From Comamonas flocculans (GTDB lineage: Bacteria; Pseudomonadota; Gammaproteobacteria; Burkholderiales; Burkholderiaceae_C): 64,000 nucleotides of DNA. The stretch covers positions 1,426,001-1,490,000 of the forward strand of contig NZ_CP042344.1 in the NCBI RefSeq assembly GCF_007954405.1, read 5' to 3'. Positions 1,236 to 62,555 of the stretch are shown here, piece by piece. The translations under genes were made by a program, and so were the position numbers. Numbering within the stretch: the first letter of the stretch is position 1; each line of letters begins with the position of its first letter. Below the pieces are notes generated by a model. The model did not search any database. It was not told where the DNA came from and saw only the letters and a program-made list of their open reading frames with translations.

Positions 1236-1293
1236 AAAATATCAGTCAAAACCTGTCCAAACGCTTGTCTGGCAAGCGCTTGCAGCTATCAAT
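1236..1293 (-). repeat. Dispersed AGCTGTCAGCGC-family repeat, copy 1
   Basis: On the minus strand it reads TTGATAGCTGCAAGCGCTTG, then CCAGACAAGCGTTTGG and a TTTTGACTGATATTTT tail. It fills the whole space between the DUF350 stop and the spermidine synthase start within one operon. The pattern (ATAGCTG-nCAGCGCTTG-spacer-AAGCGTTT) recurs at about nine other places in the window. Confidence 0.8.
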
Positions 1294-1299
1294 GCGATA

Positions 1300-1512
1300 T
1301 CAATGTATCGCCGCTGCCACGATGATGCTGATGCCCAGGCACATGGCCGCGACGACCATGCCCAGGGCGCGGTTCTGCTTCTCGACGATCTCGCCCCAGA
1401 GGTCGTGCGGGGTGATCTTGTCGATGAGGACGAAACACAGCCAGAAGATGGCCACGCCGATGACGGCGTAGAGGATGGAGCCGAGAAAGGCGGCGGGTTT
1501 GAGCCATTCCAT
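1300..1512 (-). CDS. DUF350 domain membrane protein
   Basis: A 70-residue inner-membrane protein with two hydrophobic segments, residues 8-29 (FLGSILYAVIGVAIFWLCFV) and 49-67 (ALGMVVAAMCLGISIIVAA). These are joined by a loop with the LIDKITPHDLWGEI and EKQNRALG patterns typical of a single DUF350 unit. The biochemical function of DUF350 is unknown. Such genes commonly sit beside spermidine synthase, DUF4178 and PspA/SPFH-type membrane-stress genes, and that is the case here: DUF4178 is 23 bp upstream and the aminopropyltransferase 65 bp downstream. A palindromic repeat fills the downstream gap. The start ATG at 1512 is followed by a well-matched N-terminus. Confidence 0.9.
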   Translation of the reverse strand: MEWLKPAAFLGSILYAVIGVAIFWLCFVLIDKITPHDLWGEIVEKQNRALGMVVAAMCLGISIIVAAAIH

Positions 1513-1535
1513 GGTGAGAGACCTCCGTTGCAGGT

Positions 1536-3029: not shown

Positions 3030-3038
3030 GCGTTTACC

Positions 3039-3090
3039 AGCCTTTTCGGGCTCTGGCGCCCGTCCAGCGGGCGTTGACAGCTATCGAAAG
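3039..3090 (-). repeat. Dispersed AGCTGTCAGCGC-family repeat, copy 2
   Basis: Minus strand reads TTTCGATAGCTGTCAACGCC, then CGCTGGACGGGCG and CCAGAGCCCGAAAAGG. It fills the space between the SPFH gene stop and the DUF4178 start. It resembles the copies at 55332 and 61803, which share the AGCCCGAAA tail. Confidence 0.7.
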
Positions 3091-3096
3091 GAAAGC

Positions 3097-4158
3097 TCAG
3101 ACGAGCTTCTTGAGCAACTCGGCCTTCTTGGCGGCGAATTCTTCGTCGGTGAGGATGCCCTTGGACTTGAGCTCGCCGAGCTTTTCCAGCATGGCCATCA
3201 CGTCCTCGGCCTTCACGCCAGCGGCGCCCGCGCCCGCTGCCGCCGAGCCGGCCGCCGCGGCCGGTGCCTGGGGTTGCAGCGCGGATTGCATGTTCTGCGC
3301 CAGGATCTGCCCCATGGCCACGCCCGCGCCCATGCCCAGGCCGGCGCCCGCCAGGCCCCCGCCGTCGCCGCCGCTGCCCACGCCCTTGGCCATCTCGGGG
3401 ATCGCCTGCGCGGTCTGGTACTGCATGAACTTGCCCATGTCGCCGCCGACCATGCCCATGCCGATCTTCTGGTCCAGCACCTTCTGCAGCTCGTCGGGCA
3501 GCGAGAGGTTCTGCACCGTGAAGCCTTCGATCTTGATGCCCAGCCGGGCAAATTCCGGCGCGAGCTGCGTGACCAGCGCCTGGGCGAACATGCTCTGGTT
3601 GGCCGCCAGGTCCAGAAAGGGCACGCCCGAAGCGGCAATGGCGTTGCTGATGTTCTGCAGCACCAGGCCGCGCAGCTGGCCCTCGACCTCCTCGGTGCCG
3701 TATTTCTCGCGCGTGCCCGACACCTCGGTATAGAACAGGCGCGGATCAACGATGCGCCAGGCGTAGTTGCCGAAGGCGCGCAGGCGCACCGCGCCGAACT
3801 CCGCGTCGCGGATGGTGATGGGCTGGGGCGTGCCCCACTTCTGGTCCAGCTGCTGGCGCGTGCTGAAGAAGTAGACGTCGCTCTTGAAGGGCGACTCGAA
3901 CAGCTTGTCCCAGTTCTTCAGGTTGGTCAGCAGCGGCAGGTTCTGCGTGACGAGCTTGTGCGTGCCCGCGCCGAACACGTCGGCCACCTGGCCCTCGTTG
4001 ACGAACATCGCCATCTGCGACTCGCGCACCACGAGCTGCGCGCCGGTCTGGATTTCCATGTCGCGCATCGGGTAGCGCCAGGCGAGCGTGCCGTCGCCGT
4101 CCTCGGTCCACTGCAGGACGTCGATGAACTGTTTCTTGAGGAAATCCATCAGGGCCAT
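3097..4158 (-). CDS. SPFH-domain protein with C-terminal SHOCT domain
   Basis: 353 residues, first gene of the leftward operon. Residues ~25-230 match the SPFH/virion-core-like family: early MRDMEIQTGAQLVVRESQMA, then QNLPLLTNLKNWDKLFESPF, and VSGTREKYGTEEVEGQLRGL. A Gly/Ala-rich stretch follows (~250-315). The last 30 residues form a SHOCT motif (LGELKSKGILTDEEFAAKKAELL), a short oligomerisation/membrane-associated domain. There is no signal peptide, so the protein is probably cytoplasmic or peripheral to the membrane. SPFH proteins scaffold membrane microdomains. Partners DUF4178, DUF350 and the aminopropyltransferase are co-directional with gaps of 67, 23 and 65 bp. Start at ATG 4158 gives the expected N-terminus. 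Confidence 0.88.
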   Translation of the reverse strand: MALMDFLKKQFIDVLQWTEDGDGTLAWRYPMRDMEIQTGAQLVVRESQMAMFVNEGQVADVFGAGTHKLVTQNLPLLTNLKNWDKLFESPFKSDVYFFSTRQQLDQKWGTPQPITIRDAEFGAVRLRAFGNYAWRIVDPRLFYTEVSGTREKYGTEEVEGQLRGLVLQNISNAIAASGVPFLDLAANQSMFAQALVTQLAPEFARLGIKIEGFTVQNLSLPDELQKVLDQKIGMGMVGGDMGKFMQYQTAQAIPEMAKGVGSGGDGGGLAGAGLGMGAGVAMGQILAQNMQSALQPQAPAAAAGSAAAGAGAAGVKAEDVMAMLEKLGELKSKGILTDEEFAAKKAELLKKLV

Positions 4159-4300
4159 GGCGCTGCTCCGGGGGAAAACGGGAAGGCGGCCATCATAGCG
4201 GGGGGCCCTGCATCCGCCTAATGGGCAGGCACAGCCCCCCGGACGGCTGCAGCACGGAAATTACCCATCACCGCGATAGCAAGAATGCATGGCTATTTCC

Positions 4301-4319
4301 AATGAGAATCATTATCATT
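4301..4319. promoter_or_regulatory. Fur box upstream of the DUF2061 gene
   Basis: AATGAGAATCATTATCATT is close to the 19-bp Fur consensus, with a 7-1-7 core TGAGAAT-C-ATTATCA. It lies 25 bp before the DUF2061 start, where Fur binding would block transcription in iron-replete cells. Confidence 0.82.
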
Positions 4320-4344
4320 CAGGTATTCTCCCAAGGAATCCGCC

Positions 4345-8656: not shown

Positions 8657-8833
8657 ACGGCGCTTGCGGCCCGCGCCGCGAACAGGATCGGGCAAATCGC
8701 TCTTGAAAGAGGAGCTGTTCGCGCTTGCCCAGAGGGCGTCTCAGCCTGATTTGACGAAAATCGGGGGCGTGTCGCTCAGCCAACCCGCAGCCTCAGCCCA
8801 AACGGACGAGGGCGGGTGGAAAATTTTTCGCGC

Positions 8834-11470
<2,637 letters not shown>

Positions 11471-11475
11471 TCATA

Positions 11476-11523
11476 AGAAATCGGGCTCCAGCGCTTGTGC
11501 AGCAAGCGCCTCAAGCTATCAAA
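11476..11523 (-). repeat. Dispersed AGCTGTCAGCGC-family repeat, copy 3 (supplies dnaN stop)
   Basis: Minus strand reads ATTTGATAGCTTGAGGCGCT, then TGCTGCACAAGCGCTGGAGC and CCGATTTC. The dnaN stop codon TGA is inside the repeat's ATTTGATAGCT end, so the element abuts the last sense codon of dnaN and fills the dnaN-gyrB gap. Confidence 0.75.
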
Positions 11524-12625
11524 TCCGCATGGGCATCACGACGTACTTGAACTGCTCGTTGCCAGGGATCTGAAAGACCACGGAACTGTTGCCGTCCTGC
11601 AGGTCGATGCGCACCATCTCCTGGCCCATGTTGGCAAGCGCATCGATCAGGTAGGTGACGTTGAAGCCGATCTCCATGGGCTCGCCGTCGAAGTCGATGT
11701 CGAGCTCGTCCATGGCCTCTTCCTGCTCGGCGTTGTTGCTGGAGACGCGCAGGCTGCCGGGCTCGATGTTCAGGCGCACGCCCTTGAACTTCTCGCTCGT
11801 CATGATGGCCGAGCGCTGCAGGCTAGCCAGCAGCGGCGCGCGCCCCAGCGTGATGCTGCTGTGGTAGTTGCGCGGAATCACGCGGTTGTAGTCGGGGAAC
11901 TTGCCTTCCACCAGCTTGGTGACGAACTCCATGCCGTCGAAGTTGAAGCGCGCCTGATTGCCGGCGAACTGCAGCTGGATCGCGCCCTCTCCGTCCGAGA
12001 GCAGGCGTTGCAGTTCCAGCACCGTCTTGCGCGGCAGGATGACCTCCTGGCGCGGCACCTCGACCTCCAGCTCGCTGCTGGAAAAGGCCAGCCGGTGCCC
12101 GTCGGTGGCCACCAGCGAGAGCGTTTTGCCCTCGGCAACGAACAGGATGCCGTTCAGGTAGTAGCGGATGTCCTGCACCGCCATGGCAAACGACACCTGG
12201 GCGAGCAGCTGCTTGAGCACCTTCTGCGGTACGCTGAAGGCCGGGCCGAAGGCGGCCGCTTCCTGCACCAGCGGAAAGTCCTCGGCCGGCAGGGTGTGCA
12301 GCGTGAAGCGGCTCTTGCCGCCCTTGAGCACCAGCTTGGAGGGACCGGAATCCAGGCTCACCGTCTGGTCAGCCGGCAGGGTCTTGAGGATGTCGATGAG
12401 CTTTCTTGCGCCCACGGTGGTGGCGAAGTCGCCCACGTCACCGCCGAGCTCCACCGTGGTGCGGATCTGGATCTCCTGGTCGCTGGTGGTGAACTGCAGC
12501 GCACTGCCCGTCTTGCGGATGAGCACATTGGCCAGGATGGGCACGGTGTGGCGCCGCTCCACGATGCCGGAGACCGCTTGCAGTACCGCCAGGAATTTGT
12601 CTTGGGTGCTCTTCAGGACAATCAT
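11519..12625 (-). CDS. dnaN: DNA polymerase III beta subunit (sliding clamp)
   Basis: 368 residues, usual length for the homodimeric clamp that tethers polymerase III to DNA and recruits other repair and replication proteins. Recognisable clamp features: N-terminal KSTQDKFLAVLQAVSGIVER, LANVLIRK, the GGDVGDFATTVGARKLIDIL stretch and the C-terminal VMPMRI end that forms part of the partner-binding pocket. Lies 37 bp downstream of dnaA and is co-directional with it. Start at ATG 12625 matches the family N-terminus (MIVLKST). Confidence 0.98.
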   Translation of the reverse strand: MIVLKSTQDKFLAVLQAVSGIVERRHTVPILANVLIRKTGSALQFTTSDQEIQIRTTVELGGDVGDFATTVGARKLIDILKTLPADQTVSLDSGPSKLVLKGGKSRFTLHTLPAEDFPLVQEAAAFGPAFSVPQKVLKQLLAQVSFAMAVQDIRYYLNGILFVAEGKTLSLVATDGHRLAFSSSELEVEVPRQEVILPRKTVLELQRLLSDGEGAIQLQFAGNQARFNFDGMEFVTKLVEGKFPDYNRVIPRNYHSSITLGRAPLLASLQRSAIMTSEKFKGVRLNIEPGSLRVSSNNAEQEEAMDELDIDFDGEPMEIGFNVTYLIDALANMGQEMVRIDLQDGNSSVVFQIPGNEQFKYVVMPMRI

Positions 12626-22652: not shown

Positions 22653-22710
22653 CGAAATATGGCTCAAACGCTTTCCAGGTAAGCGCTGCCAGCTATACCA
22701 AAAGGAGTAA
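22653..22710 (-). repeat. Dispersed AGCTGTCAGCGC-family repeat, copy 4
   Basis: Minus strand reads TTTGGTATAGCTGGCAGCGC, then TTACCTGGAAAGCGTTTGAG and CCATATTTCG. It lies in the divergent space between the DUF924 and FAD oxidoreductase genes, so it overlaps both 5' regions. One of the best matches to the family pattern. Confidence 0.8.
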
Positions 22711-22715: not shown

Positions 22716-23855
22716 ATGCAGACCTGGGATGTCGCCATCGTCGGTGCGGGCATGGCGGGTGCCTCGCTCGGCTGGGAACTGGCGCGCGCCGGCGTGTCGG
22801 TGCTTGTACTCGAACGCGAATCGCAGCCCGGCTACCACAGCACCGGCCGCTCGGCCGCGCTCTTCATCGAGACCTATGGCACCGAGGCGATCCGCGCGCT
22901 CACGCGCGCCAGCCGCACCTTCTACGAGACGCCTCCTGCAGGCTTCGCCAACGCCCCCATCCTCACGCCGCGCGGCGTGGCCTATGTGGCCACGTCGGGC
23001 GAGCAGGCCGAGCTGGCGGCGCTGCGGGCCGAGCTGCAGCCGCACGCGCCCGATCTGCAGGCCCTGGACCGCGAGGCGCTGCTCGGGCATCTGCCCTGCC
23101 TGCGCCCCGAGGTGGTGGCGCAAGGCCTGCTCGATCCCGGCGCCGCCGACATCGACGTGCACGCGCTGCACCAGGGCTATCTGCGCGGCCTGCGCCAGCT
23201 GGGCGGCGCGCTGCGCTGCGACAGCGAAGTGCTGGGCCTGCAGGGCCGGGACAACCACTGGCTGCTGCAGCTTCCCCAGGGCGCAACGGTGGCGGCACGC
23301 CGCGTGGTCAACGCCGCCGGCGCCTGGGCCGATGTGCTGGCGCAGCGCGCGGGCGCGGCGCCCGTGGGGCTGGTCCCCAAGCGACGCACCGCCTTCACCT
23401 TTCCCGCGCCCGCGGGCATGGACGCCGCGCACTGGCCGTCCGCGATCGGTGTAGCGGAAAACTGGTACTTCAAACCCGACGCCGGGCAACTGCTGGGCTC
23501 ACCGGCGAACGCCGACCCGGTTCAACCGCACGACGTGGTGGCCGAGGAGTTGGACGTGGCCATGGCCATCGCGCACATCGAGGCGGTGAGCCGGCTCAAG
23601 ATCCGCCGCCCCACGCACACCTGGGCGGGCCTGCGCTCCTTCGTGGCCGACGGCGAATTCGTGATCGGCCGGGACGACGCGCTGGAGGGCTTTTTCTGGC
23701 TCGCCGCACAAGGCGGCTACGGCATCCAGAGCGCCGCGGCTTATGCGCTGCTGGCGCGCAACCTGCTGCTGGGCGAGCGGCTCGACGAGTGCCTGCGGGC
23801 CCAGGGCATCACGCCCGCCATGGCCACGCGACTCGCGCCCGCGCGATTCAGGTGA
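22716..23855 (+). CDS. FAD-dependent oxidoreductase (DAO/glycine oxidase-like)
   Basis: 379 residues. N-terminal Rossmann FAD motif [20 protein letters not shown] (~6-25) with [18 protein letters not shown]; the middle has [17 protein letters not shown] (substrate-cap region) and [16 protein letters not shown] (second FAD contact); C-terminal [19 protein letters not shown] and [16 protein letters not shown]. This layout fits the D-amino-acid oxidase/dehydrogenase group oxidising an amine or hydroxy acid. The substrate is not resolved. Its end overlaps the convergent pyrF by 8 bp. Preceded by an aaaaggagtaaacc ribosome-binding region. Confidence 0.85.
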
Positions 23856-28681: not shown

Positions 28682-29445
28682 GGCGGCGTCTGCGCTCCCG
28701 CGCGCTGGCGGCTGCGCCGCAGGCTGCGCTCCAGCGCCTCGGCCGCCAGGCCCACGGCCACCGCGACGGCCACCGCCAGCAGGATGTTGAGCTTGAGCGG
28801 CAGCGCATAGGCCGCCACCGCCGCACTGCAGCCGGTGAGCGTGGCGAGCCAGCTCGGGCGGTCCACCAGCATCGCCAGCAGGATGCCCAGCAGGGCCAGC
28901 ACGCCGGCAAAGCCCAGGCCCCAGTGCAGCGGGATCGCATTGGCCAGCACGATGCCGGCGAGCGAGGACAGCTGCCAGGCCAGCCACAGCGTCGTGGCCG
29001 CGCCCCAGAAATACGGTACCTGCTCGGGCCGGGGCTCGGGTTTGGGAAAGCGCTTGAGAAAGCCGACGAAGATCACGTCGCCGCTCACATAACCCAGGGC
29101 GATGCGATGCCAGCGCGGCAGCCCACCGAAATAGTCGCGCCACAGGCTGCTGAAGATCACGAAGCGCAGGTTCACGCAGGCGGCGGTGAGCCAGATGACC
29201 CACAGCGGCGCGCCCGAAGCCATGAGCGGCAGCACCGCCAGCTGGGCGCTGCCGGCATACACGGTGAGCGTCATGATGACGGCCATGGTCACACCCATGC
29301 CGGTCTTGACCATGGCCACGCCGGTGACCAGGCCCCAGGCGGAGATGCCGAGCGCCAGACCCGCCATGTCCAGCACGCCCAGGCGGTAGTGCGGGCTGCG
29401 CAGCAGCGGCAGCAGCGCGGGCCAGATGTGGGCGCGCCGGCTCAC
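28678..29445 (-). CDS. AzlC-family branched-chain amino acid exporter subunit
   Basis: 255 residues, six to seven transmembrane helices. AzlC hallmarks: [20 protein letters not shown] (~29-48), [14 protein letters not shown] (~62-75), [17 protein letters not shown] (~90-106). Works with AzlD (next gene) as a valine/isoleucine exporter. Its ATG overlaps the fmt stop by 4 bp, so a translation-related gene and an amino-acid exporter are in one run: def, lipoprotein, fmt, azlC, azlD all read left. Confidence 0.9.
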
Positions 29446-30416
29446 GCGCGCTGCCCGCCGAGCATGTCGCCCGCGGCCATGGGGTGACCGCGCAGGAATT
29501 CGGCCGCCGCCAGGCGCTTGCCGCCCGCGCGCTGCAGGGCGGTGAGCCTGAGCGCCGTGCCCTCGCCGCAGGCCACGCGGATACCGGCCTCGTTTGCAAG
29601 CAAAATATGGCCGTAACGCCCGCCACTATTGCGCAAACAGCTATCAATTTCGCAATCCCAGACTTTGAGCGCAGTGCCCCCATGCTCGGTCTGCGCCACC
29701 GGGAAGGGGTTGAAGGCGCGTACCTGCCGCTCTATCGCCGCGGCCGGGCGCGACCAGTCGATCAGGCTCTCGGCCTTGCTGACCTTGTGCGCATAGCTGA
29801 CGCCATCGTCAGGCTGGGGCGTGGGCTGCAGGCCGCCTTCGGCCAGTTCCTTGAAGCTGCGCACGATCAACTCGCCGCCCAGGCGCGCCAGCTTGTCGTG
29901 CAGGCTGCCCGTGGTCTCGCGCGGCGCGATCGGCAGCGCTTCGCGCAGCAGCATGGGGCCGGTGTCCAGGCCCGCGTCCATCTGCATGATGGTCACGCCG
30001 GTTTCGGCGTCGCCCGCCTCGATCGCACGGTGTATCGGGGCGGCGCCGCGCCAGCGCGGCAGCAGGCTGGCGTGGATGTTCAGACAGCCCAGGCGCGGCG
30101 CGTCGAGCACCCATTGCGGCAGGATCAGGCCGTAGGCGGCGACCACCATGGCGTCGACGTCGGCCTGCAGCAGCGCCGCGCGCGCCTGCGCCGCGTCCTC
30201 GGGGTAGCGTCCGTCCAGGCGCAGGCTGCGCGGCTGCGCCAGCGCCAGGCCATGGCGCAGCGCGCACTGCTTGACGGGCGAGGCCTGCAGCTGCATGCCG
30301 CGCCCCGCGGGACGATCGGGCTGGGTCAGCACCAGCGCGACTTCCAGGCCCGCGTCCAGCAGCGCCTGCAGGGCCTGCTGGGCGAATTCGGGGGTTCCGG
30401 CAAAGGCCAGGCGCAT
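29442..30416 (-). CDS. fmt: Methionyl-tRNA formyltransferase
   Basis: 324 residues. Formylates initiator Met-tRNA with 10-formyl-THF. N-terminal Rossmann start [39 protein letters not shown] (~113-132) carries the catalytic Asn/His; [17 protein letters not shown] (~140-156) and the C-terminal OB-like domain with RAFNPFPVA (~233). Residues ~256-276 ([20 protein letters not shown]) are encoded by a dispersed palindromic repeat that stays in frame inside the C-terminal domain. Operon: def, lipoprotein, fmt, azlC, azlD. Confidence 0.95.
29596..29651 (-). repeat. Dispersed AGCTGTCAGCGC-family repeat, copy 5, in frame inside fmt
   Basis: Minus strand reads GAAATTGATAGCTGTTTGCG, then CAATAGTGGCGGGCGTTACG and GCCATATTTTGC. 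It is read as sense codons 256-276 of Fmt without breaking the frame, in an AT-richer patch of an otherwise very GC-rich gene. Confidence 0.72.
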
Positions 30417-42014: not shown

Positions 42015-42962
42015 ATGCCCGCCATCCGCAAATCCCAGCTCGACTCCCTGGCCGTCGGGCTGCTGCTCGCCTGTTGCCTCTATTGGGGCTTTCAGCAGGC
42101 GCTGTCCAAGGCCACGCTGGTCGAGGTGGCGCCCATCTACCAGGCCTTCTGGCGCTTTGCGCTGGGCACGCTGGCGCTGCTGCTGTGGTGCCGGCTGCGC
42201 GGCATCTCGCTCGCGGGGCCGGCGCAGCCGCGCGGGGTGTCGCGCGCCGGGGTGCAGGCGGGGCTGCTGTTTGCCGGCGAATTCATCTTCCTGTTCCTGG
42301 CCTTCAAGTACACCACCGCGTCGCGGGCCACGCTGTTTCTGTACTGCTCGCCTTTCTGGGTGGCTCTGGTGCTGCCCTGGTTCGTGCGCAGCGAGGGTCT
42401 GAACCGCCTGCAGTGGGTGGGCCTGGTGTGCGCCTTCTTCGGCGTGCTGCTGGCGCTGGGCGACGGCTGGCGCGGCGACGACGCGGCCCACGCCGACGCC
42501 TGGATCGGCGATCTGCTGGCGGTGGTCGCGGGCCTGCTCTGGGGCCTGACCACCTGCATGTTGCGCGCCTCGCCGCTGCAGCACGCGCGCCCGGAAAAAC
42601 AGCTGCTGTGGCAGATGGGCGTAACCACGCTGGTGCTGCCGCCCGTCTCCTGGCTGCTGGGCGAGCACTGGCAGCTCGACTTCAGCGTCTTCGCCTGGTT
42701 CTCGCTGCTGGTGCAGGGGTTGATTGGCGCCTTCGTGAGCTATCTGGTCTGGATGTGGATGCTCACGCGCTACCCGGCCACGCGCATGTCGGTGTTCATC
42801 TTTCTCACGCCGGTGTTCACGCTGCTGATCGGCGCCGCCTGGCTGGGCGAACCGGTCACGCCCACGTTGCTGGGCGCGCTCACGCTGGTGGCCGCCGGCA
42901 TCGTGCTGGTGAACCGGCGCGGCGCGCTGGCCGCGCCCGGGCAGGCCAAAGGCTCGGCATGA
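42015..42962 (+). CDS. EamA/DMT-family transporter
   Basis: 315 residues, ten transmembrane helices in two EamA repeats. Repeat 1 starts near LLACCLYWGFQQALSKATLV; repeat 2 near GDLLAVVAGLLWGLTTCMLR. The second gene (MFS) starts inside its stop codon region (4-bp overlap), so the two permeases are co-translated, an unusual pairing that suggests a shared transport function or substrate. Substrate unknown. ATG 42015. Confidence 0.85.
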   Translation: MPAIRKSQLDSLAVGLLLACCLYWGFQQALSKATLVEVAPIYQAFWRFALGTLALLLWCRLRGISLAGPAQPRGVSRAGVQAGLLFAGEFIFLFLAFKYTTASRATLFLYCSPFWVALVLPWFVRSEGLNRLQWVGLVCAFFGVLLALGDGWRGDDAAHADAWIGDLLAVVAGLLWGLTTCMLRASPLQHARPEKQLLWQMGVTTLVLPPVSWLLGEHWQLDFSVFAWFSLLVQGLIGAFVSYLVWMWMLTRYPATRMSVFIFLTPVFTLLIGAAWLGEPVTPTLLGALTLVAAGIVLVNRRGALAAPGQAKGSA

Positions 42963-44125
42963 ACCGCCACCTGCTGCTGCTGGCCCTGTGCCAGGGCCTG
43001 TTCCTGGTGAACAACGTCACCTTCATCGCGATCAACGGGCTGGTGGGGCTGCAGCTCGCGCCCGAGGGCTGGATGGCGACGCTGCCGGTCATGGGCTATG
43101 TGGTGGGCGGGGCGCTGGCCGCGCCGCTGGTGGCGCGCACCCAGACGCACTACGGGCGCGCGGTGTCGTTTCAGATCGGGCTGGCGGTAGCGCTGGGCTC
43201 GGCGCTGCTGGCCGCCTACGCGGCGCAGACGCGCAGCTTTTCGCTCCTGATGCTGGCCACCGTGGTGGCGGGTTACTACAACGCCAACGGCCAGCTCTAC
43301 CGCTTCGCCGCCGCCGAGCTGACCCGGCCGCACTGGCAGGAAAAGGCGGTCTCGCTGGTGCTCGCCGGCGGTCTGCTGGGCGCGGTGGTCGGCCCCAACA
43401 TGGCGGCCTGGACGCGTACCCTGCTGCCCACACCCTTCGTCGCCGCCTACCTCACGCTGGCGCTGGTCGCGCTGCTGGCCATGGGGGTCATGGCGCTGAT
43501 CCGGTTCCCGCCCGCGCCGGTGCGCACCCGGCATGCGCCCCAGGGTCGCCCCATGGGCGAGATCATGCGCCAGCCAGTGTTCATCGTGGCCACGCTGGGC
43601 GCGGCCATAGGCTACGGCGTCATGAACCTCCTGATGGCCGCCACGCCGCTGGCCATGCAGGTGATGGGTTTCGAGTTCGGCGCCACCGCCCTGGTGCTGC
43701 AATGGCACGTGATCGGCATGTATGCGCCGGGCTTCTTCACCGGGCACCTGATCCGCCGCTTTGGCGTGCTCCGGGTCATGGGCGCGGGCGTGCTGCTGAA
43801 CGTGCTGTGCGTGGCGGTGGCGCTGTCGGGCGTGGCGCTGCACCACTTCCTGGCGGCGCTGGTACTGCTGGGCGTGGGCTGGAACTTCCTGTTCACCGGC
43901 GCCACGACGCTGGCGCTGCAGGCCTACCGCCCCGAAGAGAAAGACCGGGCGCAGGCGGCGATCAACTTTTGCGTCTTCGCCACCATGGCGGTGACCTCGT
44001 TTGCCTCGGGCGCGCTGGTGACGACGCAGGGCTGGAGCTGGCTCAACTATGGCTCGATGCCGGCGCTGGTCTTGATGGCCCTGGCCTTGGGGTGGCTGGC
44101 GCTGCGCCGCCCCGCCGCCGCATGA
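42959..44125 (+). CDS. MFS transporter
   Basis: 388 residues with twelve predicted transmembrane helices. Start overlaps the previous permease (ATGA). N-terminal NNVTFIAINGLVGLQLAPEG, loop 2-3 region RTQTHYGRAVSF, and second half MGEIMRQPVFIVATLGAAIG, YGVMNLLMAATPLAMQVMGF; the loop GHLIRRFGVLRV is the MFS-like repeat of the cytoplasmic motif. Family: YcaD/Tsg-like major facilitators of unknown substrate. Probably one operon with the EamA gene. Confidence 0.87.
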   Translation: MNRHLLLLALCQGLFLVNNVTFIAINGLVGLQLAPEGWMATLPVMGYVVGGALAAPLVARTQTHYGRAVSFQIGLAVALGSALLAAYAAQTRSFSLLMLATVVAGYYNANGQLYRFAAAELTRPHWQEKAVSLVLAGGLLGAVVGPNMAAWTRTLLPTPFVAAYLTLALVALLAMGVMALIRFPPAPVRTRHAPQGRPMGEIMRQPVFIVATLGAAIGYGVMNLLMAATPLAMQVMGFEFGATALVLQWHVIGMYAPGFFTGHLIRRFGVLRVMGAGVLLNVLCVAVALSGVALHHFLAALVLLGVGWNFLFTGATTLALQAYRPEEKDRAQAAINFCVFATMAVTSFASGALVTTQGWSWLNYGSMPALVLMALALGWLALRRPAAA

Positions 44126-44180: not shown

Positions 44181-44250
44181 TTACCAAAAAAGTAGCTGTC
44201 AGCGATTGTCCAGCAAGCGTTTGCGCCACTTTTTATCCTGATATTTCAAA
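44181..44250 (+). repeat. Dispersed AGCTGTCAGCGC-family repeat, copy 6
   Basis: Plus strand reads AAAAAGTAGCTGTCAGCGAT, then TGTCCAGCAAGCGTTTGCGC and CACTTTTTATCCTGATATTT. A full-length, clean copy in the convergent space between the MFS gene and the biotin carboxylase gene. The wider 44126-44292 gap holds nothing else I can identify. Confidence 0.85.
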
Positions 44251-44292: not shown

Positions 44293-46014
44293 TCAAACGA
44301 TGCGCGCCATCACGTCGCCCACCTGCACCAATGCACCGGCGTCGGCCAGGCAATGCAGCGTGCCCGCCCGGGGCGCAGCGACAGCCGTCTCCATCTTCAT
44401 TGCCTCCAGCGTGGCAATGATTTCGCCGGCGCCGACGGGGGCGCCCTCCTGCTGGTGCCAGCGCACCAGGTTGCCGGTCAGCGGCGCGGGCACATCGCCG
44501 GGCTGCTGCGGCCGCTCGTCCTGCGCTGCGGCGGAGGGCTCGCCGGCGGCCTGCAGCGCGAGGCCAGCGGGCAGGCCCAGGCGCAGGCGCTTGCCCTCGA
44601 TCTCCATCCAGGTGCGGGTGAGCGGCGCGCTGTCTTCGGGGCCGGGGCGCGCGGCGGGCTCAAACTCTGCCTGCATCCCGGTCTCGATCCAGCGCGTATG
44701 CACGCCGAAACCCTGCTCGGCGGTGAAGGCCGGGTCATCGACGACAGCGCGGTGAAACGCCAGCACCGAGGCCACGCCCTCGATGCGCAGCTCGGCCAGC
44801 GCACGGCGCGCACGGGCGAGCGCCTGCGCGCGTGTGCTGCCGCTGACGATGAGCTTGCCCATGAGCGAATCGAAGCTGCCGGGCACCAGCGAGCCCGCGG
44901 CGACGCCGCTGTCCAGGCGCACGCCGGGGCCGCCGGGCACATCGAAGCGCGTGATGCGCCCGGGCGTGGGCAGGTAACCGCGCCCCGGGTCTTCGGCGTT
45001 CAGGCGAAACTCGATGGCATGCCCGCGCACCGGCGGGGTGGCGCCAAAGGACAGCGGCAGGCCGTCGGCCACGCGCAGTTGCTCCAGCACCAGGTCGATG
45101 CCGGTGGTTTCCTCGGTCACCGGATGCTCCACCTGCAGACGGGTGTTCACTTCAAGAAAGGAAATCTGGCCGCTCTGGCCGAGCAGGAATTCCACCGTGC
45201 CCGCGCTCTCGTAGCCGACGGCGGCGCAGATGTCGCGCGCGGCGCGGCAGACGGATGCGCTCTGCTCGTCCGTGAGAAAGGGCGCGGGCGCTTCTTCGAC
45301 CAGCTTCTGGTTGCGCCGCTGCAGCGAGCAGTCGCGCGTGCCGACGACGAGGACGTGGCCATGGCGGTCGGCGATGACCTGGGCCTCGATGTGGCGCGGC
45401 TGGTCCAGGAACTGCTCGACGAAGCATTCGCCCCGACCAAACGCGGCCGTCGCCTCGCGCACCGCGGAGGCGTAGAGCTCGGCCACCTCGTCCATATGCC
45501 AGGTCACCTTGAGCCCGCGCCCGCCGCCGCCAAACGCCGCCTTGATGGCGATCGGCAGGCCGTGCGTGCGCGCAAAGTCCAGCACCTCGTCGGCGCTTTG
45601 CACCGGCTCCGCCGTGCCCGCGACCAGCGGCGCACCGACCTGCAGCGCCACCTTGCGCGCGGCCACCTTGTCGCCCAGCTGCGCCATCGCGGCGGGCGGC
45701 GGGCCTATCCAGGTGAGGCCGGCGTCGATGACTGCCTGGGCGAATTCCGCGCGCTCGGACAGAAAGCCATAGCCGGGGTGCACCGCGTCGGCACCGCTCT
45801 TGCGCGCCACGGCGAGCAGCTTGGCGATGTCGAGGTAGGTTTCGGCCGGGCGCGTGCCTTCCAGCGCCCAGGCCTCATCGGCCGCGCGCACGTGCAGCGC
45901 GTCGGCGTCGGGGTCGGCATAGACGGCGACCGAGCGCACGCCGTAATCGCGGCAGGCGCGGGCGACACGCACCGCGATCTCCCCGCGATTGGCGATCAAT
46001 ACTTTGCGGATCAT
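44293..46014 (-). CDS. Biotin carboxylase with C-terminal biotin-carrier domain
   Basis: 573 residues. Biotin carboxylase core ~1-445: [20 protein letters not shown] (~4-23), [17 protein letters not shown] (~80), ATP-grasp glycine loop [13 protein letters not shown] (~160), [20 protein letters not shown] (~227-246), [17 protein letters not shown] (~289). Linker; then a biotinyl domain ~505-573 with the biotinylated Lys in [12 protein letters not shown]. No carboxyltransferase is in the same polypeptide. Overlaps pxpBC by 4 bp. PxpB/PxpC are homologous to the carboxyltransferase part of urea carboxylase, so the pair may form a split enzyme. Alternative: a lactam or acyl-CoA carboxylase subunit. 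Confidence 0.88.
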
Positions 46015-47735
46015 TCGTGAATCTCCTCAAACGGCGCGATGGCGCGAAAGCGCAGGCTGCAGCCCACCGGAATCTGCGCCGCCAGGCCCAGGTGGTGGCT
46101 GGCGACGACGGCGATGACCGGGTAGCCGCCGGTCAGCGGATGGTCTGCCAGGAAGAGCACCGGCTGGCCGCTGGCCGGCACCTGGATGGCGCCGACGGCC
46201 GTGCCCTCGCTGGGCAGCTCGTCGTGGCGGCTGCGCGTGAGCGGCTCGGCGCCCATGAGGCGCATGCCCACGCGGTTGGACTGCGGGGTGACGCGCCAGG
46301 CCTGGGCCTGCAGCAGCGCGACGGCCTCGGGCGTGAACCAGTCGGTGCGCGGGCCGAGCAGCACGTTCAGCACCACCTCGTCGCCGGGGCGGGGCAATTC
46401 GGTGCGCGGTGCCTGCGCTGGCGCACAGGCGCTCAGGCGCTGCGCCGCGATCGCACGGCCCACCGCCAGCCGCTGGCCGGGCTGCAGCGCGGCGGGGCCG
46501 ATTTCGGCCAGCGTGTCGCGCGCGCAGCTGCCCAGTTCGGGGGCCATCTGCCAGCCGCCACGCACCGCCAGATAGCCGCGCACCCCTGCGCGCGGGGCGG
46601 CAACGGTGAGCACGTCGCCATCGTCCAGCGCCAGCGCCGCATGGTTGGCCAATGGCCAGCGGCGGCCGTCAAGCGCTTGCAGGGTGAGCGGCATGTCGGC
46701 CCCCGCCAGGGCCAGCGTGACGCGGCCGTGGGCGCGCAGTTGCAGGCCGCCCAGCAGGTGTTCGAGCACCGGCGCATCCGGCGGGTTGCCGACCAGCTGG
46801 TTGGCCTGGCGCATGGCCGCAAGGTCGAGCGCGCCGGAGGCGGAAATGCCCAGCCCGGCCAGGCCGTGGCGACCCTGGTCCTGCATCAGGGTTTGCAGGC
46901 CGGTATTCACTATTTCAATAGCTGTCAGCGCTTGTCTGGCAATGGTTTGCTTCGGATTTGGCTTGTGTTCTTCAGGCAAGCCCTCACCCCTGCCCTCTCC
47001 CAAAGGGAGAGGGAGAGAGACCCCGGTAGCGGTGGCGCGGGGTGCTCCCTCGCCCCTCTGGGGAGAGGGCCGGGGTGAGGGGCCGCCCAGCGCCACGCCG
47101 ACCCGCCCGGCCTCGACGAAGCACACCTCGAAGCCCGGCTGCACCAGCGCGGGCTCGGGGCGCGCGGTGTCCCACATCACGGCCTCGGTGCGCCCTATCA
47201 ACTGCCAGCCGCCGGGGCTGGCCTTGGGGTAGACGGCGCTGAAGCCCCCGGCCAGCGCGACCGAGCCCGCGGGCACACGGGTGCGCGGCGTCTTGCGCCG
47301 GGGCACGCGGGCAAAGCAGTCGTCACCGCCCGTCAGATAGACGAAGCCCGGCGCAAAGCCGGCAAACGCCGCCTGCCAGGGCTGGGCGCAGTGGCGCTGC
47401 ACCAGTTCGCGCGCCGTCAGGCCCAGGTGCTCGGCCAGTTCGGCCAGGTCCTCGCCGTCGTAGTGCACCGCGATCTGCACGCGCCGGTCCGGTGGCGGCG
47501 CCGGCTGCGCCTGGTCTTCCAGGGTGGCGGCCACCGTCCGTACCGCGCGGGCCAGGGTCTGCGCCGTGGTGCGCTCGCGCCGGTAATGCAGCAGCAGGGT
47601 GCGGGCGGCCGGTACCAGCTCGCGCACGCCGTCCACCGGGGTGGCCTGCAGCGCACGGTACAGCGCCAGGGTCTGCGCCAGGTCGGGCAGCTCCAGCAGC
47701 AGCGCGCCGTCACCGGCCGGCAGGATGCGCATCAT
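46011..47735 (-). CDS. Fused 5-oxoprolinase subunits PxpB-PxpC with repeat-derived linker
   Basis: 574 residues. PxpB (allophanate-hydrolase subunit 1-like) ~1-215: [15 protein letters not shown] (~123), [20 protein letters not shown] (~149-168), [15 protein letters not shown]. PxpC (subunit 2-like) ~275-574: [20 protein letters not shown] (~279-298), [17 protein letters not shown], then [10 protein letters not shown] and [20 protein letters not shown]. With PxpA it forms ATP-dependent 5-oxoprolinase. The linker ~218-277 ([12 protein letters not shown]...[12 protein letters not shown]...[16 protein letters not shown]) is encoded by two dispersed DNA repeats kept in frame. Overlaps pxpA and the biotin carboxylase by 4 bp. 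Confidence 0.9.
46910..46962 (+). repeat. Dispersed AGCTGTCAGCGC-family repeat, copy 7, in the PxpB-PxpC linker
   Basis: Plus strand (opposite to the gene) reads TATTTCAATAGCTGTCAGCG, then CTTGTCTGGCAATGGTTTGC and TTCGGATTTGGC. It encodes residues ~258-277 on the minus strand, ending at the first conserved residues of the PxpC domain, and is open in the gene's frame. Confidence 0.8.
46981..47082. repeat. CCCTCACCCC-type palindromic element in the PxpB-PxpC linker
   Basis: Left end CCCTCACCCCTGCCCTCTCC and the complement of the right end CCCTCACCCCGGCCCTCTCC are near-perfect terminal inverted repeats; the left end itself is a hairpin (CCCTCTCCC-AAA-GGGAGAGGG). The element is 102 bp, a multiple of three, and is read through in frame as a Pro/Gly/Arg/Glu-rich peptide. 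Related elements are common in proteobacterial genomes (from memory). Confidence 0.85.
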
Positions 47736-54511: not shown

Positions 54512-55246
54512 TCACCATTTCTCGCCAAAGGGGCGCGCCTCGATCTCGAAGGACCAGGCCGAGCGCGGCTGCTGCGCCAGCCACCAGGCGGATTCGGCCA
54601 CGGCCGCGGGCTGCACGAAGAAGTCGTCGGGCTTGTCCGCAAAACGCTGGCGCGAACGCGGCAGGTCGACGATGCCGTCGATCACGATCAGCGCCACGTG
54701 GATGCCCTGCGGCCAGAGCTGGCGCGCCATGGATTCGGCCAGCGTGCGCTGCGCCGCCTTGGCCTGGGCGAAGGCCGCCGCGCCCGCGCCGCCGCGGCGC
54801 GAGGCGGTGGCGCCGATGACGATGATGTTGCCCCCGCCGAGCCGCTTCATGCCCGGCAGCAGCGCCTGGACGGCGGCAAACAGGCCCAGGGTGTTCACGC
54901 GCCAGCACTGCTCCAGGTCGGACGCCGTCACCTCTTCGACGCTGCCCCAGGCGCCCGAGCCGGCGTTGTAGATGAGCGTGCCCACCGGCCCCTGCCGGGC
55001 CGCCACCTGCGCCAGCGCGGTCTGCAGCGGCTCGGGCTGGCCGGCGTCCACCGCATAGGCGCGCGCCGATGGCAGCTCCTGCGCCAGCGCCGCCGAAAAG
55101 CCGCTGCTGCGCGCGAGCAGCGCCACCGGTGCGCCCTGCGCGCCAAAGCGCCGCGCCAGCGCCGCGCCATTGCCCGGCCCCGTGCCGACGATGGCGCTGA
55201 CCGCCTGCGCCGGCGCGCCTGCACCTTCCTTGAAATCCCGCGCCAT
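54512..55246 (-). CDS. SDR-family protein lacking the catalytic tyrosine
   Basis: 244 residues with a Rossmann SDR fold: nucleotide loop AIVGTGPGNGAALARRFGAQ (~18-37; GxGPGxG variant), LIYNAGSGAWGSVEEV (NAG, ~89), NIIVIGATASRRGG (Ser of the tetrad, ~139) and AFAQAKAAQRTLAESMA (~157). At the YxxxK site it reads FAQAK, so Phe replaces the active-site Tyr while Lys remains. C-terminus FFVQPAAVAESAWWLA. Probably a redox-impaired or atypical SDR; a repeat follows upstream at 55332. Confidence 0.82.
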   Translation of the reverse strand: MARDFKEGAGAPAQAVSAIVGTGPGNGAALARRFGAQGAPVALLARSSGFSAALAQELPSARAYAVDAGQPEPLQTALAQVAARQGPVGTLIYNAGSGAWGSVEEVTASDLEQCWRVNTLGLFAAVQALLPGMKRLGGGNIIVIGATASRRGGAGAAAFAQAKAAQRTLAESMARQLWPQGIHVALIVIDGIVDLPRSRQRFADKPDDFFVQPAAVAESAWWLAQQPRSAWSFEIEARPFGEKW

Positions 55247-55331: not shown

Positions 55332-55392
55332 CAAACAATATAGCTGTCAGCGCCCGGCCACAGGGCGTTACAGCCCGAAAGCACTCAAAAAC
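55332..55392 (+). repeat. Dispersed AGCTGTCAGCGC-family repeat, copy 8
   Basis: Plus strand reads AACAATATAGCTGTCAGCGC, then CCGGCCACAGGGCGTTACAG and CCCGAAAGCACTCAAAAACC. It lies in the 190-bp gap between the VOC gene stop and the SDR gene start, which holds nothing else recognisable. The CGTTACAGCCCGAAA half matches the copy inside the acetoacetyl-CoA synthetase. Confidence 0.75.
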
Positions 55393-55436: not shown

Positions 55437-56072
55437 TCAGGACGAAGACAGCAGGCGCAGCCCCTGCGGCGTGCGGATGTGCGCGACCAGCCGCGCCGCC
55501 TCGCCCGCGCGCACCCGCACTGGCGCCTGCAGCGCGAGCGAGGTCAGCAGGCGCGACACGCGATCGGGCTCGGGATGGAAGATCTCCAGTTGCTCCAGCG
55601 CCAGGCCCATGTCGGGCATGCGGGCCGCGGGGTGCTCGGCGCACTGCCATTCGATGAGCGCCGGCGCCGCCCCGTCCAGCACCATGGCGCCGTCGACGCC
55701 AAGGCTGATCAGCCAGTTCAGCGCACCGCGGCTCATGGGTTCGGCCGCGCCCAGCGGCTCCGAGGCCGCCGCCAGGGCGCCGTCGATCGCGCTGCTGCGC
55801 GCCACCCAGGTGCGCAGCGCCGGCGGTGCCCCGGGCGGCAAGGCATCGAGCCCGAACCAGCGCGCGCGGCCGGGGGGCGGCGCCGCCGGGTTGGGCGCGA
55901 TCACCTCCAGATAGCTGCTCTCGCCCAGGCGCAGCAGGCGGTTGTGCGTGGCCATGCGCGGGTGCTCGCCGCCGGCGAGCGGCGCCACGCCCAGCAGCCG
56001 GGCGACGCAGGCCGCGCCCGCGTCGAGCGAGTGGCAGGTGACGACGAGGTGGTCAAGCAGGGTCGGGGTCAC
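55437..56072 (-). CDS. VOC-family glyoxalase-like protein
   Basis: 211 residues from GTG 56072. N-terminal LLDHLVVTCHSLDAGAACVA (~5-24) with RLLGVAPLAGGEHPRMATHN (~25-44) and LRLGESSYLEVIAPNP (~47) resembles the Glyoxalase-like (PF13468-type) VOC fold: His, Glu metal positions near ~8 and ~56. Reaction unknown; members include dioxygenase-like and resistance proteins. No ATG lies in the conserved start region; GTG fits. Follows gor (29-bp gap) in the same direction. Confidence 0.75.
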   Translation of the reverse strand: MTPTLLDHLVVTCHSLDAGAACVARLLGVAPLAGGEHPRMATHNRLLRLGESSYLEVIAPNPAAPPPGRARWFGLDALPPGAPPALRTWVARSSAIDGALAAASEPLGAAEPMSRGALNWLISLGVDGAMVLDGAAPALIEWQCAEHPAARMPDMGLALEQLEIFHPEPDRVSRLLTSLALQAPVRVRAGEAARLVAHIRTPQGLRLLSSS

Positions 56073-59396: not shown

Positions 59397-59429
59397 GCGC
59401 GCCGGCAGCGGGCCGATATCATGGCGGGC

Positions 59430-60137: not shown

Positions 60138-60148
60138 ACCAAATCCTT

Positions 60149-60427
60149 TCAGTGGTAGCCGACGATCTCGACCTGGCTAGCGTGCCCGTCCGACCAGAGG
60201 AAGCACAAGCGCCACTGGCTGTTGATGCGGATGCTGTATTGGCCTTTGCGGTCGCCGCGCAGCGCCTCCAGCCGATTGCCTGGCGGCACGCGCAAGAAGT
60301 CCAGCGATGTCGCCGCGTGCAGTTGCGCCAGGCGCCGCAGCGCCACCGCTTCAATGGCGACGAAACGCGCCACCCTTTTTTGCTCGAAGAGCGCTTTCGT
60401 GTCCGAACAGCGGAAATCGAGGATCAT
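60149..60427 (-). CDS. higB: HigB-type toxin (RelE/ParE fold)
   Basis: 92 residues from ATG 60427. RelE/HigB ribosome-dependent mRNase pattern: MILDFRCSDTKALFEQKRVA (~1-20), RLAQLHAATSLDFLRVPPGN (~32-51), RLEALRGDRKGQYSIRINSQ, WRLCFLWSDG with the basic and His residues of the active site. Toxin first, HigA second. Two upstream in-frame codons (60433) are open. Addiction-module function inferred from family. Confidence 0.9.
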   Translation of the reverse strand: MILDFRCSDTKALFEQKRVARFVAIEAVALRRLAQLHAATSLDFLRVPPGNRLEALRGDRKGQYSIRINSQWRLCFLWSDGHASQVEIVGYH

Positions 60428-60470
60428 TGGCACCGATATTAACGGGCCGCAGTATTAACGTCAAACGTTA

Positions 60471-62555
60471 TCAAACGGACGCGCGCCGCGCCGCAAACTC
60501 CACGAACCACGCGAGCGAGCCCGGGTTGGCCATGGCCTCGCGGTTCACCACCTTCTCGATCGTCTGGCCCAGCAGCAGCTTCTTGATCGGCAGCTCCTGC
60601 TTCTTGCCCGACAGCGTGCGCGGGATTTCCGGCACCTGAAAGATCTCGTTGGGCACGAAACGCGGGCTCAGCGAGCGGCGGATGGCGTCGTTGATGCGCG
60701 CCGTCAAAGCCTCGTCCAGCGCGTGGCCGGGGCGCAGCACGACGAACAGCGGCATCCAGCTCTCGCGGCCCAGGTATTCCAGGTCCACCACCATGGAGTC
60801 GAGCACCTCGGGCAGGGCCTCGACGGCGCTGTAGACCTCGCTCGTGCCCATGCGCAAGCCCTGGCGGTTGATGGTGGCGTCCGAGCGCCCGTAGATCACG
60901 CACCATTCGCCCTCGCCGTGCTCGTCGCCCACGCGCAGCCAGTCGCCATGACGCCAGACGCTGCCGGCCTCGGGGCCGAGGTCGCCGCCGCCGGGTTTGC
61001 GCCCATGCCCCGGCGGGTACATCTCGAAGTAGCTTGCCAGGTAGCGGGCCTTGCCCGGGTCGTTCCAGAAGGTGAGCGGCATCGAGGGAATCGGCTGGGT
61101 GCAGACCAGCTCGCCCACCTGGCCCTTGACCGGGCGGCCGGCATCGTCCCAGGCCTCGACCGCGGCGCCGAGCATGCGGCACTGCATCACGCCGGGGCGC
61201 TGCGGCAATTCGGGCGTGCCGGCGATGAAGCCGCCGGCGAAGTCGGTGCCGCCCGAGACGTTGAACCACCAGATGTCCTGCTGCGCGGGCGTCCTGGCGA
61301 TGCGCCGGAACTGCTCCGTGCCCCATTGCTGCACCTCGGGCGAAAGCGGCGAGCCGGTGGTGCCGATGGCGCGGATGCGCGACAGGTCGCCGCACTGCGC
61401 CAGATCGACGCCCGCCTTGACGCAGCCCGCGTAGAAGGCCGCGCCCGAACCGAGGAAGGTGACGCCGTGGCGCGCGGCGAAGCGCCAGAGCGTGCCCCAG
61501 TCGGGCGCATCCCTGGGGCCGCCGGGGCTGCCGTCGAAGATCACGCAGGTGGTGCCGGTGAGCAGGCCGCCGACCTGGATGTTCCACATGATCCAGCCGG
61601 TGGAGGAATACCAGCAGAAGCGCTCGCCGAAATTGTTCGGCGCGTAGCTGCAGCCGACGTCGCTGTGCAGGCCGGTGGTCATGGACACGACGAGGATGCC
61701 GCCATGCGAATGCACGATGGGCTTGGGCAGGCCGGTGGTGCCGCTGGAATAGACGATCCACAGCGGATGATCAAAGTCCAGCCACAGCGGGGTGAACGCC
61801 GCGGTTTGTGCATCATTTCGGGCTGTAACGCTGGCCCAGTCTGCGCTGTCAGCTATGGTTTCAGTATCTTGCAGATGGCGCACCGCCAGCACGTGCTGCA
61901 CGCTGGGCAGCTCGGCGCGCAGTTGAGCGACGGTGTCGCTGCGCTCCAGTGCGCGGCCCGCCCAGGTGACGCCGTCGACGGCGATCAGCACCTTGGGCTC
62001 GATCTGGCGCAAGCGGTCGAGCACCGCATGGCTGCCCATGTCGGGCGCGCACACGCTCCAGACTGCGCCGATGCTGGCGCAGGCGAGGAAGGCGACCATG
62101 GTCTCGGGAATGTTGGGCAGATAGGCGGCGATGCGGTCGCCGGGCTGCACGCCAACCTCCTGCAGGTGCAGCGCCAGCGCCGCCACCTGGCGGCGCAATT
62201 CGGGCCAGGAGAGTTCGCGCACGCGGCCGCGCTCGTCCTCGGCGATCAGGGCGGGCTGCCCGGCGGCATGGGCGGCATCGGTGTGGCGCAGCACCTGCTG
62301 CGCGTAGTTCACCTGCGCGCCGGGAAACCACTCTGCGCCGGGCATCACGTTCCTGCCCAGCGCCGCCCGGTGCGGGGTGGGGGATTGCAGATCGGCCCAG
62401 TCCCAGATGCTCTGCCAGAAGGCATCGAGCTCGGTGACCGACCACTGCCACAGCGCGTGGTAGTCGGCGAATTCGAGGCCGCGGCTGCGGCGCAGCCAGT
62501 CCTGATAGCGGCGGATCAGCGGGACGCAAGGGGGGAATGCAGGGGGCGTGGTCAT
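60471..62555 (-). CDS. Acetoacetate-CoA ligase (acetoacetyl-CoA synthetase)
   Basis: 694 residues. Activates acetoacetate with ATP and CoA, feeding ketone-body or PHB carbon to acetyl-CoA. ANL family motifs: WIVYSSGTTGLPKPIVHSHG (~266-285), TGSPLSPEVQ (~385), GGTDFAGGFIAGTPELP (~415), GRSDATINRQGLRMGTSEVY (~562-581), and the C-terminal catalytic Lys RTLSGKKQELPIKKLLLG. Extended N-terminal HALWQWSVTELDAFWQSIWD is the acetoacetyl-specific form. Residues ~229-251 are encoded by a dispersed repeat. ATG 62555 or an internal Met could start it. Confidence 0.92.
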   Translation of the reverse strand: MTTPPAFPPCVPLIRRYQDWLRRSRGLEFADYHALWQWSVTELDAFWQSIWDWADLQSPTPHRAALGRNVMPGAEWFPGAQVNYAQQVLRHTDAAHAAGQPALIAEDERGRVRELSWPELRRQVAALALHLQEVGVQPGDRIAAYLPNIPETMVAFLACASIGAVWSVCAPDMGSHAVLDRLRQIEPKVLIAVDGVTWAGRALERSDTVAQLRAELPSVQHVLAVRHLQDTETIADSADWASVTARNDAQTAAFTPLWLDFDHPLWIVYSSGTTGLPKPIVHSHGGILVVSMTTGLHSDVGCSYAPNNFGERFCWYSSTGWIMWNIQVGGLLTGTTCVIFDGSPGGPRDAPDWGTLWRFAARHGVTFLGSGAAFYAGCVKAGVDLAQCGDLSRIRAIGTTGSPLSPEVQQWGTEQFRRIARTPAQQDIWWFNVSGGTDFAGGFIAGTPELPQRPGVMQCRMLGAAVEAWDDAGRPVKGQVGELVCTQPIPSMPLTFWNDPGKARYLASYFEMYPPGHGRKPGGGDLGPEAGSVWRHGDWLRVGDEHGEGEWCVIYGRSDATINRQGLRMGTSEVYSAVEALPEVLDSMVVDLEYLGRESWMPLFVVLRPGHALDEALTARINDAIRRSLSPRFVPNEIFQVPEIPRTLSGKKQELPIKKLLLGQTIEKVVNREAMANPGSLAWFVEFAARRASV
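61803..61870 (-). repeat. Dispersed AGCTGTCAGCGC-family repeat, copy 9, in frame inside acetoacetyl-CoA synthetase
   Basis: Minus strand reads ACTGAAACCATAGCTGACAG, then CGCAGACTGGGCCAGCGTTA and CAGCCCGAAATGATGCAC. It is sense codons ~229-251 (TETIADSADWASVTARNDAQ) of the ligase, between two N-terminal domain segments, without breaking the frame. Confidence 0.78.

Follow-up and report, generated by a model that had tools for sequence, protein, structure and literature searches.

Palindromic repeats are usually regarded as mobile or neutral DNA. The repetitive extragenic palindromes (REPs) of the GTAG and CGTC superfamilies, as described in PMC3733652, are short, high-copy palindromes with GU pairs in their stems that lie mainly between unidirectional or convergent genes, some being inside replication and repair genes. 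The beta-proteobacterial repeat element (BRE; PMC3110155) occurs in Bordetella and the Comamonadaceae at intergenic and intragenic positions, is 75–91 bp long with 69% GC, is often tandem, and reaches at most 29 copies. A preliminary description of a 64,000-nt stretch of the Comamonas flocculans chromosome (contig NZ_CP042344.1, positions 1,426,001–1,490,000; hereafter the window) reported a family of short palindromic repeats scattered between and inside its genes. The analysis presented here confirms that family and establishes that it is larger, older, and more conserved than was first thought. With a probability of about one in two, we interpret the repeat as an old dispersed hairpin whose copies are today retained where they stand, and may on occasion arise there, at the level of DNA.

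The repeat resembles the REPs of PMC3733652 in being a short stem-loop in high copy, mostly intergenic with some copies in genes, and in containing GU pairs. It differs in lacking the GTAG or CGTC tag, in place of which it carries an invariant AGCT within ATAGCT; in its length of about 62 bp with AT-rich shoulders; in occurring as single copies without dimers, clusters, or BIMEs; in having no Y1 transposase gene found in its own genome; and in being kept at orthologous places and in coding sequence. With the REPIN/BIME repeats associated with REP-associated tyrosine transposases (RAYTs), as described in PMC2817692, it shares the character of a non-coding hairpin repeat spread as a unit, but its copies are unpaired and the Y1 gene of the bacterial family mostly has other flanks. 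The flanks of that gene, GGGGTCAG, fit the TIRYT/TIRtron type with its GGGGWSAS motif (PMC3733652) and sometimes stand beside a copy of the repeat, yet these flanking repeats are unlike the present one. BRE is similar in host group and placement, whereas the present repeat is AT-rich, single, and present in about 230 copies, the two being set apart here by description only. The repeat appears to be an old REP-like dispersed hairpin; it possesses the stem-loop and lacks the GTAG tag, the dimers, and a flanking RAYT. No account of it was found in the open-access literature, a search whose scope excluded the supplements of REP surveys and which does not prove absence; the main text of PMC6006769, in the part covered, does not mention the Comamonadaceae.

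In this complete 3.33-Mb genome, copies were scored with a covariance model, R1, built from ten window copies, and with a position weight matrix (PWM) built from 52 copies outside the window. These 52 were picked with R1, so their choice depends partly on the window; the null for the PWM, 15 order-2 Markov windows of 64 kb, is independent of copy choice. The ten copies in the window score 12–58 bits by PWM, and the simulated windows reach a maximum of 5.4 bits. Nine of the ten sites originally listed are among these copies; the tenth, a weak site at 21056, scores about −9 bits and is not a member, and a copy at 8707 had been missed. The copies are AT-rich, as described earlier (GC 0.47–0.64 versus 0.69 for the window). 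Genome-wide there are at least 150 R1 matches (all 150 candidates scored matched), and a 400-kb sample taken at regular intervals contains 28 at E≤0.001, which corresponds to about 70 per Mb, or about 230 per genome. A laxer count of PWM matches above 8 bits on both strands, with palindromic double matches left in, gave 53 in 464 kb, or up to about 380 per genome. The reported density of one copy per ∼6 kb holds within the window (156 per Mb) and is about twice the sampled genome average. The window spans dnaA-dnaN-gyrB (8.8–14.1 kb), and 27 of the 150 best copies sit in the genome eighth nearest dnaA. A consensus scan allowing two mismatches proved useless in this GC-rich genome, returning 77 matches against 63–97 in controls.

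The element has an oriented, hairpin-forming core, ATAGCTGnCAGCGCTTG-n5-CAAGCG(T/C)TnnAGCC, flanked by AT-rich shoulders. Among 71 distinct own-genome copies (the distinct ungapped rows of 74), AGCT at positions 7–10, CG at 16–17, and G at 32 are invariant, and AGCT is preceded by T in 62. The tail variation that had suggested two subtypes is present, with T replaced by A at positions 44 and 45 in seven of the 71 copies, but it is a skew inside one family and not a division into separate subtypes. In an alignment of 77 copies from 80 named loci in other Comamonadaceae, information spans about −10 to +52 around GATAGCT with little beyond, which defines a sharp-edged unit of about 62 bp; the consensus with flanks is (G/A)CTAYtnnnTTGATAGCTGCTAGCGCTTGnCnGATAAGCGCTAGAGCCnnATTTnACTCAAAA. 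Read by eye, this consensus contains one central hairpin with unmatched ends and none of the 15–30 bp terminal inverted repeats of a miniature inverted-repeat transposable element (MITE). Half-motifs are scarce outside full elements, TGATAGCTG being found 11 times inside and twice outside, and AAGCGYTNNAGCC five times inside and twice outside. The sharp edges and the scarcity of isolated half-motifs together point to past dispersal as a unit. Copies are single and randomly spaced: among the 150 best, the smallest start-to-start gap is 1156 bp, and no REPIN-like pairing, dimers, or clusters were seen, while with weaker matches included one pair in the sample lies 553 bp apart (L213). In several genera a mini-hairpin, GCTATTnnnnATAGC, stands just before the element (L228–L257), and it sometimes occurs alone (e.g., in G094, G112, and G044).

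These dimensions bear on whether the repeat could be a DNA signal that promotes its own spread and has been enriched by biased exchange, in the manner of an uptake sequence. Such a signal would be consistent with copies both in and between genes, with the lack of orientation or replichore bias, and with the ileS motif, which is present without an insertion (see below). Known DNA uptake signals are ∼9–12 bp and are present as isolated cores, however, whereas this motif extends over ∼47–62 bp, and no short core isolated genome-wide was found, the half-motifs residing mostly in full elements. We regard an uptake-like signal as improbable.

R1 matches were obtained in all nine genomes of the genus (C. 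flocculans included), in 45 of 200 genomes of the bacterial family, and in none of 16 genomes that represent other families in the order; in the family-wide search, 30 candidates per genome were scored under stricter filters. Among the matches listed (at least 80 loci from a pattern scan), the carriers are Acidovorax, Comamonas, Simplicispira, Giesbergeria, Diaphorobacter, Extensimonas, Paenacidovorax, and others, in agreement with the earlier remark on similar repeats in the Comamonadaceae. The motif was present in one Acidovorax record among plasmids, and phage records gave no match. Three IMG/VR contigs carry it (L258–L260), L258 in several copies; these may be host fragments or proviruses.

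Copies are retained at orthologous places within the genus. When each window copy was paired with each genus genome in which both flanks lie in one stretch with a short gap, 29 of the 30 resulting cells held a copy at the corresponding position; only copy 3042 was missing, in G001. Outside this rule, the nearest relative compared, G007, is without copy 44188 and has ∼1.2 kb of other DNA between the conserved flanks (contig 1, ∼2470306–2471502), and at copy 1247 the right flank is adjoined by a copy in G005, with none seen in G004. Between genera, 4 of 14 distinct judgeable named loci are common, all in the same orientation; only flanks with ∼60% identity and 180 bits or more were kept, row L144 (start 8) being an artefact and other weaker rows mostly non-orthologues. 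Clean filled/empty pairs, which a check for target-site duplications calls for, were not found between genera or against G007. The repeats therefore look immobile in this genus, and copies turn over across genera during longer times. Mobilization, which the preliminary description considered, accordingly has support as past dispersal but not as present mobility in this genus, where 29 of the 30 sites are occupied and in-gene copies show net differences of ∼0–4 residues.

The copy at 11477..11523 (−) overlaps the stop codon of dnaN (11519–12625, −), before gyrB, and scores 56.6 bits by PWM. It is present in 6/6 genus genomes, and in other genera 14 of the 24 genomes that bear the repeat have the element directly after dnaN in the same orientation at E<0.001. 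Two more genomes (G096 and G201) carry it ∼180 nt beyond dnaN, one at E=0.007. None of six genomes without the family has a match after dnaN at E<0.001, G044 giving a weak match (E=0.0021). An alignment of the dnaN orthologues (A5), which omits G044 and the 10 of 24 genomes lacking an E<0.001 match right after dnaN, contains 21 sequences (20 distinct); 6 of the 10 stem pairs have changed on both sides, and 86% of cells pair. The covariation score of the stem, 0.335, was reached by 0 of 500 shuffles. When the stem strands were slid against each other, both this score and the proportion of paired cells fell. Two stem pairs are U-G six times each and C-A never. The copy after dnaN thus keeps its stem across genera through paired changes.

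Copies within genes provide evidence of a different kind. The truB copy is antisense and scores above 12 bits by PWM in 19 of 21 repeat-bearing genomes, with a maximum of 10.5 bits (G044) in 10 others. GC content at third codon positions (GC3) in the repeat-bearing genomes is 0.46 over the motif versus 0.83 over the rest of the gene, and in the 10 genomes without the repeat the corresponding values are 0.79 and 0.83 (p=0.0004 for the truB comparison). Ala169 is encoded by GCT in 21/21 repeat-bearing genomes; elsewhere in truB, 2 of 173 conserved columns are mostly A/T-ending. At the motif, TruB is four residues longer than E. coli TruB and than TruB of six of the 10 motif-less genomes, and 0–2 residues longer than that of the other four. 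On a tree of IleS and TruB, which includes the motif columns, the motif label needs seven changes, of which well-supported branches force three; the tree can accommodate an ancient gain followed by losses.

The ileS copy, also antisense, scores 36–44 bits in six genomes of two genera and 29 bits in G143 and G144; the other 23 genomes range from −25 to 13 bits. R1, built from the window, scores this site at 38.6 bits. Codons 451, 452, 455, 460, 464, and 466 are AT-ending (CAA, AAA, CAA, ATT, GCT, and GAA) in all six high-scoring genomes and codon 463 (GCA) in five of them. In 11 genomes chosen for comparison from the 23 motif-less ones, GC-ending codons prevail, and the residue is identical in all genomes at 452, 464, and 466. 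IleS gains no extra length from the motif: a nearby two-residue difference is unlinked to motif presence, and a 15-residue gap relative to the IleS structure 8c9e is common to relatives without the motif. The motif difference in ileS is therefore mainly synonymous and involves no insertion; a gain here, rather than a loss elsewhere, may account for it.

Length comparisons at other in-gene copies agree. The copy at 29602..29648 (−), in sense orientation inside the methionyl-tRNA formyltransferase gene (29442–30416, −; Pfam Formyl_trans_N/C; PWM 47.6), is present in G007, and the protein has a net +2 residues there relative to 1fmt and +4 relative to 5uai. At 61814..61860 (−), a sense copy (PWM 38.0) lies inside the acetoacetyl-CoA synthetase gene (60471–62555, −) and, among the genus genomes with both flanks, is found in 4/4. 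Of 43 aligned homologues, compared as proteins only, 40 are ungapped at the motif, and relative to 4wd1 the enzyme has a few more residues there. Across the four in-gene copies for which protein comparisons were made, the net difference is ∼0–4 residues, not the ∼20 of a clean insertion. Selection is expected to remove insertions from conserved genes, and for that reason the in-gene lengths do not rule out insertion between genes. We advance only tentatively the stronger proposal that a long (∼47–62 bp), strand-polar hairpin motif was written into coding sequence, largely synonymously, and then held across many genera.

Placement was evaluated for 64 of the 74 own-genome matches, leaving out two duplicates and the eight weakest, with gene calls from a simple codon-usage script. 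Although intergenic DNA makes up 8.9% of the sequence, 48 of the 64 copies are intergenic; the remaining 16 lie inside genes, 10 antisense and 6 sense. The reported occurrence both between and inside genes thus stands, with a strong preference for the former. Between co-directional genes, 18 copies are oriented with transcription and 19 against. Replication polarity is likewise absent (70 with versus 80 against among 150 copies, dnaA being taken as the origin). GU pairs and AC mismatches were then counted by gene context in 61 of the 64 copies, the three divergent-gene cases being left out. The GU:AC ratio is 18:6 where the element runs with its gene neighbours and 17:4 where it runs against them, 11:4 between convergent genes, 18:1 for antisense in-gene copies, and 5:6 for the few sense in-gene copies. 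Which strand folds appears to be set by the element itself. A bias tied to the element's own strand argues for recognition of one DNA strand, or for a master sequence that had such pairs, and against a general role in mRNA.

An RNA element, that is, a hairpin in mRNA tuning stability, termination, or translation between genes, would fit the 48 intergenic copies and the covarying stem after dnaN, where the element is in sense orientation. The even split between co-directional genes, the 10 antisense copies among the 16 in genes, and the similar GU:AC bias when the element is antisense speak against it. The copies in truB and ileS recur from species to species despite their antisense orientation, and no Rfam match above the gathering score was found in the window. 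The RNA-level role raised in the preliminary description is consequently disfavoured as a general function, and we rate it as unlikely.

Another explanation is that the copies are fossil REP- or MITE-like units that a Y1 transposase of RAYT or TIRYT type once spread in the form of single-stranded hairpins and that are now merely decaying. Copying as units, seen in the sharp edges and rare half-motifs, and the strand-bound hairpin are as expected from such an origin. A PF01797 match is present in 146 of the 200 genomes of the bacterial family, mostly as one open frame of ∼230–300 aa per genome. A copy of the repeat lies within 60 nt of the Y1 gene in 5 of 20 repeat-bearing genomes that have this gene, and copies lie on both sides in one. 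No Y1 (PF01797) match was found in the C. flocculans genome, which extends the earlier remark that no transposase lies nearby. Four genus genomes (L061–L064: G002, G005, G008, and G004) contain a full-length homologous open frame of ∼225–237 aa in which the HUH residues are replaced; the PF01797 model misses G004 and G005, where a protein query finds the diverged homologues. The neighbours of this HUH-less frame are presumably a Fis-type regulator and, downstream, GltB.

The Y1 gene nevertheless often carries its own flanks, GGGGTCAGATTCCAATT or its reverse (27 loci read), and it occurs in many genomes without the repeat; the repeat forms no dimers. Plain decay does not predict AT-rich truB codons kept across genera, nor the ileS pattern. 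The narrower hypothesis that this gene is the RAYT of the repeat was rejected: several genera have a copy directly behind the stop codon of the Y1 gene, but this gene has flanks of its own and also occurs without the repeat. A RAYT would be expected between two inverted copies, and copies on both sides were encountered in 1 of 20 repeat-bearing genomes, with no Y1 match found in C. flocculans. In many of L032–L058 the order 3′ of the Y1 gene is stop codon, ∼45 nt, TTTGATRTGTCCCC, and GGAATCTGACCCC. Taken together, the data are suggestive of an old link between the repeat and the Y1 gene and fall short of demonstrating it. An origin as decaying transposase-borne units is possible, though we think it less likely than not.

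We favor instead retention of an old hairpin at the DNA level. In the distant past the element would have spread as a unit within a part of the Comamonadaceae, and its single copies would now be held in place by a process acting on DNA, not mRNA. A protein that binds DNA or processes single strands, specific for both the sequence and the hairpin, may read the element. In-gene copies could have arisen at look-alike sites from short conversion tracts off other copies, or through selection.

Several observations weigh against this interpretation. No reader protein was identified, the data do not separate conversion from selection, and copies between genes could have arrived by insertion. Ten of the 14 loci judged between genera are not common, which indicates that gain and loss are frequent. 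For the dnaN stem, two of the five shuffle measures are less decisive, 45 and 19 of the 500 shuffles attaining them; the shuffles ignore relatedness, and the stem was defined after the sequences had been seen. In other genera the wobble bias is less marked, the inner stem giving a GU:AC ratio of 32:17 (counted in 29 of 115 matches plus 28 others). The bias perhaps reflects a founder effect, with a single consensus pair accounting for 42 of the 74 wobbles in G000, and the matches scored were selected by a model that favours pairing. Among four truB motif columns with conserved residues, only Ala169 is AT-ending throughout and the other three are mostly G/C-ending. The ileS motif is found in only 8 of 31 genomes, and ileS GC3 over all repeat-bearing genomes is 0.76 versus 0.83 (p=0.35), a non-significant difference, as would follow from the motif being confined to a subset.

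The remaining window copies are as follows. At 1247..1293 (−), a 47-nt core (PWM 57.6, R1 46.7 bits) separates predicted genes 1300–1512 (−) and 2–1234 (−), the latter polyamine aminopropyltransferase-like, and is present in 3/3 genus genomes with both flanks. The copy at 3042..3088 (−; PWM 27.9) is directly past the stop codon of gene 3097–4158 (−) and is retained in 4/5 genus genomes with both flanks. The newly recognized copy at 8707..8753 (+; PWM 37.6, R1 43.7) is on the 3′ side of gyrB (8834–11431, −); its left flank was not located in the relatives' stretches, and it is therefore outside the orthologue count. The copy at 22654..22700 (−; PWM 55.6) is just upstream of gene 22716–23855 (+) and occurs in 2/2 genus genomes with both flanks. 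Between the convergent genes 42959–44125 (+) and 44293–46014 (−) lies the copy at 44188..44234 (+; PWM 51.9), present in 3/3 genus genomes with both flanks in one stretch. The weakest accepted member, at 55336..55382 (+; PWM 12.1), has a CGAAA tail, lies between genes 54512–55246 (−) and 55437–56072 (−), and is present in G007.

The copy at 46914..46960 (+; PWM 49.2) is antisense inside a PF02682-PF02626 (PxpB-PxpC type) fusion gene (46011–47735, −), between the two domains, and is present in 5/5 genus genomes with both flanks. The linker of the fusion protein is encoded by the antisense element, and similar linkers recur in related proteins; the repeat may have helped to fuse the PF02682 and PF02626 genes. 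A second repeat family (CCCTCACCCC..CCCTCTCCC..GGGAGAGGG) at 46975–47092 adjoins this copy and matches many places in genus genomes, while a strict pattern finds no other site in 464 kb of the C. flocculans genome.

These findings suggest that a repeat of this kind can persist, and perhaps arise, with no insertion and in spite of a strong GC codon bias, with slowly evolving genes (the dnaN-gyrB spacer, truB, and ileS) serving as internal controls. If the DNA-level interpretation is correct, the repeat would be either a DNA-level signal with a dedicated reader or an element that homes by short conversion tracts into look-alike sites. The question of whether such repeats serve the cell becomes directly testable, and the loci and model described here provide a starting point for finding the reader protein.

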